Shown here: piece after piece, positions 40,173-41,376 of the stretch
Position numbering within the stretch: the stretch's first letter is position 1
How the letters are laid out: every line of letters begins with the position of its first letter
Assembly (NCBI RefSeq): GCF_001402875.1
Contig: NZ_CP012946.1
Coordinates: 536,001 to 600,000, forward strand
From: Blastochloris viridis
GTDB taxonomy: Bacteria; Pseudomonadota; Alphaproteobacteria; Rhizobiales; Xanthobacteraceae
Direction of reading: 5' to 3'
DNA: 64,000 nt
Position numbers and translations under genes: made by a program
The notes under the pieces: generated by a model
Database searches by the model: none
What the model was told of the DNA's origin: nothing
Seen by the model: the letters and a program-made list of their open reading frames with translations, nothing else

Positions 40173-40278
40173 CCGGGTTCCCGGTTGATCAGTTCGGACT
40201 GGCCGTTGGCCGAGGGCCGCGTCGATTCGCTCTCCCCTTGCGGGCAAGCACCCCTTGTAACTTGAATGCGCCGCGATC

Positions 40279-40390
40279 GGGTAAGCTACCGGGTGCGGTG
40301 ACGGGTGGGAGCCCGCAAACCCCTGGGTCGTCCGAGACCGTGGGTGAGATCGGCGCCCCACCCGTCGTTCCTTCGAACCCGGACAGTCGC
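40279..40390 (+). ncRNA. Putative IS110 bridge RNA
   Basis: In the non-coding leader, GACGGGTGGG (40300-40309) pairs perfectly with CCCACCCGTC (40357-40366), nested in CCGGGT (40289-40294) with ACCCGG (40377-40382). The inner loop contains ACCC/GGGT and GGTC/GACC pairs around TCCGA. IS110 elements encode a bridge RNA at this place that recognises target and donor DNA. Loop heptamers CCCGCAA (40312-40318) and GGGTGAG (40342-40348) are complementary to the bases flanking the left and right edges. Exact transcript ends are unknown. Confidence 0.5.
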
Positions 40391-40426
40391 CAGGGCCGCA
40401 CGAGCTCGCTTCGGCAAGGTCGGGTC

Positions 40427-41362
40427 ATGTCGGAACAGATCACCGTCGGTATCGATGTCTCCAAGGATCGCCTCGATGTCCATGTCCGCCCCCTGGGCGA
40501 GGCGTTTGCCGTCCCGCGCGACGGCGAAGGCCTCGCCAATCTCTGCCACCGCCTGACGGCGCTCGCCCCCGCCCTCGTCGCCCTGGAGGCGACCGGCGGC
40601 TTTGAGGCGGTCGTCACCGCAGCGCTGGTTGCGGCCGGCCTGCCGGTGGTGGTGGTCAACCCCGCCCAGGTGCGTGCGTTTGCCCGCGCCCTCGGCAAGC
40701 GCGCCAAGACCGATCCGATCGACGCCGCGGTGATCGCCCACTTCGCCGCGGCCACCGCGCCGGAGGTGCGGCCGATGCCCGACGAGGCGACGCGCCGTCT
40801 CGCCGCGCTGATGGCCCGCCGCCGGCAGATCGTCGAGATGATGGGCGCAGAGCGCCAGCGCCTGCGCCATACCGCCGTCGCGCGCGTGCGCCAATCGATC
40901 GAGCGCCTCATCCAGGCCCTCGAAAAGGAACTCGCCGAGATCGACCGCGACATCGACACCGCCGTCCGCAGCTCGCCCGCCTGGCGCGAGGCCGAGGACC
41001 TTTTGTCCTCCGTTCCCGGCGTCGGGCCAATCGTGGCGCGCTCGCTCCTCGCCGAGCTGCCCGAGCTGGGAACGCTCGACCGCAAGAAGATCGCCGCCCT
41101 CGCCGGGCTCGCCCCCTTCACCCGCCAGTCCGGGTCCTGGAAGGGGCGCAGCTTCATCGGCGGCGGTCGCTCGACCGTCAGAACAGTGCTGTTCATGGCC
41201 GCGCTGGTCGCCAGCCGGTACAACCCCGTCCTGAAAACCTTCTACCGCCGCCTCCTCGACGCCGGAAAGCCCAAGATGCTCGCTCTCGTCGCCGTCGCCA
41301 GGCGCCTCCTCGTCATCCTCAACGCCATCCTCAGAGACAAACAGCCATGGCGAACCGCTTGA
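40427..41362 (+). CDS. IS110-family transposase (DEDD recombinase)
   Basis: A 311-residue recombinase, apparently intact. The N-terminal RuvC-like domain holds the acidic residues in [22 protein letters not shown] and [11 protein letters not shown]; coiled helices follow (about 130-185), then the Tnp_IS110 domain ([19 protein letters not shown] and [18 protein letters not shown]), where a serine acts as nucleophile in this family. The ATG at 40427 removes a longer frame running through the leader. It inserts DNA using a bridge RNA, without inverted repeats. Confidence 0.92.
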
Positions 41363-41376
41363 CCAGAAAGACAGTC

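Follow-up and report, generated by a model that had tools for sequence, protein, structure and literature searches.

Introduction

Insertion sequences of the IS110 group are recognised by a short subterminal repeat of 2-3 bp in place of long inverted repeats (PMC11208160). IS621 of Escherichia coli, a member of this group, encodes a bridge RNA in the long left end upstream of its recombinase (PMC11208160, PMC11208158). The target loop of this RNA precedes the donor loop, nine of its letters pair discontiguously with seven donor bases (PMC11208160), the core is CT, the recombinase carries DEDD residues plus a serine, and the target is a repeated palindromic element, REP. The circles formed by IS110 elements have a promoter across the joined ends (PMC11208160). 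The IS1111 group, described with seekRNA, has a transposase of the same DEDD type and is RNA-guided, but its RNA usually lies downstream of the gene and its subterminal inverted repeats are identifiable (PMC11187229). Insertion into REP sequences is described for ISPpu9 of Pseudomonas putida, from the IS110 family (PMC8450116), and specific insertion into REP was reported for ISPsy8, ISPa11, ISPpu9, ISPpu10, ISRm22 and ISRm19 (PMC1525189). The elements and repeats of the latter report are other than those described here. To our knowledge, no RNA was known for REP-targeting insertion sequences at the date of that report.

The present study concerns an element in the window, by which we mean the whole 64,000-nucleotide stretch of Blastochloris viridis DNA that was analysed (G000:C1:536001-600000, from a genome of 3.72 Mb in one contig). 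We conclude that it is very probably an IS110-group insertion sequence that selects its target through a bridge RNA. The earlier note on this DNA had announced a new bridge RNA; the element is indeed new within a described family, whereas the type of system is already known, as it belongs to the IS621-like bridge RNA systems. It shares with IS621 the position of the RNA in the long left end, the CT core, the order of the two loops, nine RNA letters that could pair discontiguously with seven donor bases, the DEDD plus serine residues and a repeated palindromic target; judged by hexamers and spacing in the sequence, its joined ends may likewise form a promoter. It differs from IS621 in its distant recombinase sequence (phmmer E 4.4e-31), in its target, and in a left end of 171 bases compared with 191 bp. 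The best solved-structure match of the recombinase is the ISCro4 transposase (PDB 9t56, E 2.2e-33), and a whole-element match of 66.9% DNA identity was found to an element annotated as ISMex17 family on a Methylorubrum populi plasmid. We rejected an assignment to the IS1111 group (downstream guide RNA, 7-17 bp subterminal inverted repeats): the RNA lies upstream, the right end of 15 bases is too short to hold a guide RNA downstream of the gene, and identifiable subterminal inverted repeats of that kind are absent. With this element the bridge RNA recombinases gain a member whose target is clear and predictable, and the guide-to-target pairs of its relatives make up a compact, naturally occurring data set.

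Borders, copies and target of the element

An IS110 element had been proposed at 40245..41376, with a leader of 182 bases. The element is real, and comparison of the flanks of three copies moves its borders to the following positions.

40254..41377, + strand: the complete IS110-group element of 1124 bp, from the CT core through the right end (flanks of three copies)
40254..40255, + strand: left copy of the CT core dinucleotide (three-copy flank comparison; intact target in paralogous repeats and G002)
40256..40426, + strand: left end, or leader, encoding the candidate bridge RNA, 171 bases
41363..41377, + strand: short right end terminating in ACAGTCG, 15 bases (flank comparison)
41378..41468, + strand: right half of the interspersed palindromic target repeat, opening with the right CT core (genome matches)

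In the three copies the left junction reads ACCC-CT-TGTAAC and the right junction ACAGTCG-CT-CACCC; these three pairs of flanks therefore define the element as 40254-41377, one CT counted. The actual left end runs to the start codon over 40256-40426, and the first nine bases of the leader as formerly drawn (eleven with the core) are target DNA. A long non-coding left end and a short right end, a trait of the IS110 group, are thus present (171 and 15 bases), and a subterminal repeat of 2-3 bp around the donor can be seen by eye in the junction ACA-GTCGCT-TGT.

The genome contains three full copies, namely that of the window and matches at C1:401167-402357 and C1:301371-302558. Each of the other two shows 0 mismatches to the window copy in 1118 compared bases, and the PF02371 profile (E 0.001) matches the three copies and nothing else in the genome. 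All three occupy the target ACCC-CT-CACCC inside an interspersed palindromic repeat, which has many matches across the genome; the target sequence of the wild-type element is ACCCCTCACCC. Intact ACCCCTCACCCG occurs at 12 places in the genome and the reversed pattern at 0. Since the left half of the repeat around the window copy is rearranged, the empty site of this copy was deduced from the paralogues and from G002, a genome of the same genus. There, the repeat lies beside the orthologue of the gene next to the element, which we take to be dapE, and reads TACCC-CT-CACCCGG without the element.

Copies of a palindromic repeat with CTCTCCC...GGGAGAG arms were seen at window positions 33558-33628 (C1:569558-569628) and 41378-41468. 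This repeat and a second repeat family each have dozens of genome matches.

The recombinase and the activity of the element

40427..41362, + strand: 311-aa IS110 recombinase with its DEDD and serine residues intact (PF01548, PF02371, NF033542; alignment with IS621 and ISCro4)

The product matches PF01548, the RuvC-like DEDD domain, with 88.4 bits (cut-off 29) and PF02371, the Tnp domain with the conserved serine, with 71 bits (cut-off 21.3), and it exceeds the cut-off of NCBIfam NF033542 (IS110 family RNA-guided transposase). As had been noticed earlier, the acidic residues and a serine are kept: D10, E54, D96, D99 and S235-G236, counted from motif starts, align with D11, E60, D102, D105 and S241-G242 of IS621, whose catalytic residues are as given in PMC11208158.

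The suggestion that the element may be active finds indirect support in these intact catalytic residues and in three copies that are without difference over the compared stretch. It is unlikely that the element has ceased to be active and that its undiffering copies arose by recent duplication or conversion instead of transposition. That reading draws on the small number of copies, three, and on two solo leaders and a decayed one found elsewhere in the genome; against it, the copies lie at separate places with unlike outer flanks and occupy the same target position each time, and an open frame spans the PF02371 match with all catalytic residues in place.

Guides of the leader and their fit to target and donor

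We kept 80 of the 242 relatives found, mostly from Alphaproteobacteria; the highest best-segment identity among the 80 was 82%, in Ancylobacter aquaticus. The window element and 57 of the 80 were taken on, while 23 were dropped as lacking a recognisable left end, cut by a contig end or too unlike. From these 58, 55 usable left ends were aligned. The guide counts are based on 54, as L021 was omitted for its missing target loop, and after removal of identical ones on 49 left and 33 right guide pairs. L021, from a Microvirga relative, lacks the target-loop interior with both target guides at about 1863-1950 and keeps the donor loop.

40316..40324, + strand: left target guide CAAACCCCT, which spells the left half of the target together with the core (supported by the relatives)
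40325..40339, + strand: small hairpin between both target guides (consensus fold)
40340..40348, + strand: right target guide GTGGGTGAG, complementary to CTCACCC
40383..40390, + strand: left donor guide ACAGTCGC, letters of the element's right end plus the first core base
40410..40418, + strand: right donor guide TTCGGCAAG, discontiguous pairing possible with CTTGTAA of the left end

The target loop thus consists of CAAACCCCT, the hairpin and GTGGGTGAG, in this order, and its ACCCCT and GGGTGAG fit both halves of ACCC-CT-CACCC. The donor loop follows with ACAGTCGC, which matches the right end, and TTCGGCAAG, which matches the left end discontiguously. ACCCCT, GGGTGAG and ACAGTCGC appeared together in order in 0 of 20,000 mononucleotide shuffles of the leader, the motifs having been picked after the flanks and ends were seen.

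The guides also follow the flanks across the relatives. Among the 33 distinct right pairs, agreement over five positions is 4.55 when the guide is compared with its own flank and 2.01 when it is compared with other flanks; for the 49 distinct left pairs the corresponding values are 3.86 and 2.56. Own-flank agreement was reached by 0 of 10,000 permutations for either guide, and the kinship of the sequences inflates all of these counts. Over the five bases beside the core, per-base agreement of the right guide is 0.97, 0.94, 0.94, 0.82 and 0.88 (n=33). The fit is complete in 24 of the 33 right pairs, 4 of 5 in seven, and fails in two: L014, with 0/5 (L015 is identical there), and L040, with 2/5. 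CT stands opposite the right guide in all 54 leaders with a target loop. On the left, 18 of 49 pairs fit at 5 of 5, 14 at 4 and 17 at 3 or fewer, and no more than 19 of 54 leaders have CT as the core opposite the guide. For 9 of 47 left guides a one-base shift gives the best fit; when such a shift is allowed for own and other flanks alike, agreement is 4.09 versus 3.11 (n=47; 0/10,000 permutations).

The donor guides hardly vary and therefore yield little covariation. TT of the right donor guide stands opposite AA in 52 of 55 elements; two elements with TGTAT, L056 (by script) and L060 (alignment read by eye), have AT instead, and L021 was left out of this scoring. The right ends of L033 and L088 depart from the usual ACAGTCG.

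The guides fit the sites that the element occupies, which argues that the bridge RNA reading is the right one, and the earlier proposal of a candidate bridge RNA is supported by guides matching the target and both donor ends and by a covarying target-loop stem. The alternative that the leader is a structured 5' untranslated region controlling translation of the transposase, with the protein choosing the target, seems to us extremely unlikely. It would suit a leader that reaches the start codon, with the right donor guide ending nine bases before it, and it has a model in ISPpu9, which possesses a long 5' untranslated region and whose small RNA Asr9 raises transposase translation (PMC8450116); yet a purely regulatory leader would leave unexplained why two loop segments track the flanks of each element and why another repeats its right end. 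Translational control and the bridge RNA role may coexist in the leader.

Structure of the leader RNA

40270..40299, + strand: 5' hairpin predicted in the bridge RNA, in competition through its 3' arm with the consensus pairs 40295-40298/40396-40399
40299..40309, + strand: 5' strand of the 11-bp target-loop stem; all 11 pairs changed on both sides
40357..40367, + strand: 3' strand of the 11-bp target-loop stem (covariation)

Covariation was scored in alignment A2, made of 48 of 50 leaders (L047 and L061 omitted) plus that of the window. Over these 49 leaders the 25 consensus pairs form in 97.2% of cells, a percentage that leans in favour of the structure, since the alignment that is scored also served to derive the structure and consists of related sequences. 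Absent stem covariation among relatives had been named beforehand as the finding that would tell against a bridge RNA; changes on both sides were found at 13 of the 25 pairs, in 105 cells, where shuffles gave 23.2 on average and slid controls no more than 19, with covariation at all 11 pairs of the target-loop stem.

The perfect 10-bp helix previously seen in the leader is found at 40300-40309 with 40357-40366 and extends to this 11-bp stem. For the 6-bp helix said to be nested with it there are two perfect candidates, 40293-40298/40396-40401 and 40289-40294/40377-40382, both enclosing the 10-bp helix. The inner four pairs of the first, 40295-40298/40396-40399, are the consensus outer helix, paired in 97.4% of cells and nearly invariant; the two outermost pairs of that candidate are not conserved (8/28 and 11/28 sequences). 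The 5' hairpin has z below -1 in 42 of the 49 leaders, with a mean z of -2.1 against mononucleotide shuffles only. RNAalifold favours the outer helix over this hairpin, and the fold of the window leader alone favours the hairpin.

Folding energy was dropped as evidence for a structured leader, as it shows no excess over shuffles (z -0.65; equalled or bettered by 50 of 200 shuffles). An Rfam search returned no family at gathering score. The unexceptional folding energy would suit the idea that a GC-rich leader forms such hairpins by chance, to which we assign a negligible probability because all 11 main-stem pairs covary against shuffles and slid controls, an argument that covers the main stem and neither the 5' hairpin nor the nearly invariant outer helix.

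Joined ends and a proposed mechanism

40258..40263, + strand: TAACTT, -10-like hexamer, 17 bases from the -35-like hexamer once the ends are joined; putative promoter role
41359..41364, + strand: TTGACC, the -35-like hexamer at the right end; it overlaps the stop codon

By the sequence of both ends, joining them would place TTGACC 17 bases before TAACTT. All 55 right ends examined have TTGA at that position, and 47 of 52 have TGAC.

We propose a bridge RNA mechanism on the model of IS621. The element would be excised as a circle, in which joining of the right and left ends would bring TTGACC 17 bases before TAACTT and so drive transcription of the leader. The leader RNA would then bind the recombinase, its target loop would pair with ACCC-CT-CACCC, which is repeated in the chromosome within the palindromic repeat, and its donor loop would pair with the joined ends ACAGTCG-CT-TGTAA. 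Finally, the recombinase would exchange strands at CT. In this scheme the borders, the CT core, the guide fits, the stem covariation, the conserved junction hexamer and the undiffering copies at three places are read from sequence comparison, and the circle, transcription, complex formation and strand exchange would follow by analogy with IS621.

Leaders without a transposase

The leader model finds the three full copies in the B. viridis genome and, in addition, two solo leaders and one decayed leader. The first solo leader, L005 (positions 1501-1670 of its locus, minus strand; G000:C1:1860666-1860835), scores 140.7 bits and stands without a transposase. The second, L004 (positions 1510-1671; G000:C1:2098603-2098764), scores 118.6 bits, has lost the right donor guide and has a left end that reads CCTGTAAC. 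No match to the window transposase was found within flanks of about 1.5 kb of either. The decayed leader L126 (G000:C1:3293827-3293964, minus strand; 15.4 bits, E 0.18) begins at GCACCC-CT, the repeat family and target position of the live copies.

Between L005 and the window leader 19 of 170 positions differ, 14 of them within the 45 bases that form the interior of the target loop (Fisher p 6e-6). The left guide of L005 agrees with its own left flank at 1/5 positions in the usual register and at 5/5 when read one base further on. CT-CAGGA, the site predicted from its right guide, is present there in intact copies of the second repeat family (GGCTCCTCAGGA). Other flanks fit these guides equally well in 0 of 47 cases on the left and 0 of 44 on the right. 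The guides of L005 are thus rewritten for GGCTC-CT-CAGGA of the second interspersed repeat family, in which it sits, and from this fit we infer that the lineage probably included, at some time in the past, an element guided to a different repeat family. L005 therefore presents guide rewriting on a nearly unchanged scaffold within one genome, a natural counterpart of engineered reprogramming. The guides of L004 fit its site at 4/5 on the left and 3/5 on the right, and 14 of 47 left and 26 of 44 right other flanks do equally well or better.

A right end (ACAGTCG or ACAGTTG besides the donor guide; TTGA plus ACAGT at the usual distance) was not found within about 1.6 kb downstream of L004, L005 or L126, nor was a -35-like hexamer 17 bases before TAACTT. 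For want of a nearby right end and of this hexamer, we read the solo leaders as remnants and rejected the view that they are autonomous mini-elements. It is very unlikely, in our estimation, that L005 is a kept guide gene and that solo bridge RNAs with rewritten target loops could redirect the live recombinase to the second repeat family; if this were so, the genome would hold a reserve of guides.

A literature search, with preprints outside its scope, and word searches of the available parts of PMC11208160 and PMC11187229 returned no transposase-less bridge RNAs. The nearest precedent is offered by the orphan RNA genes of ISPpu9, copies that lie away from the transposase (PMC8450116). Those copies, of ssr9, carry both end boxes on their flanks and have no relation to REP in the judgement of that study (PMC8450116), unlike the solo leaders here, which have no right end nearby and are situated in repeats.

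With stricter filters and E 0.001, a leader-model search of the genomes of 60 relatives and of the B. viridis genome itself gave matches in 8 of the 61, and at the same settings none in the two genomes of the same genus. Outside the B. viridis genome, three matches exceed 100 bits. That in G046 has a transposase; the other two, in G014, are at loci that a contig end interrupts: one includes a transposase fragment, and at the other no transposase is in reach. Weak matches of 25 to 36 bits in G008, G031 and G059 showed no match to the window transposase in the examined flanks. In Chelativorans, the relative L010 has a second partial leader directly upstream and two right ends downstream of the element, a layout that resembles insertion beside or into another copy and could also be an effect of assembly.
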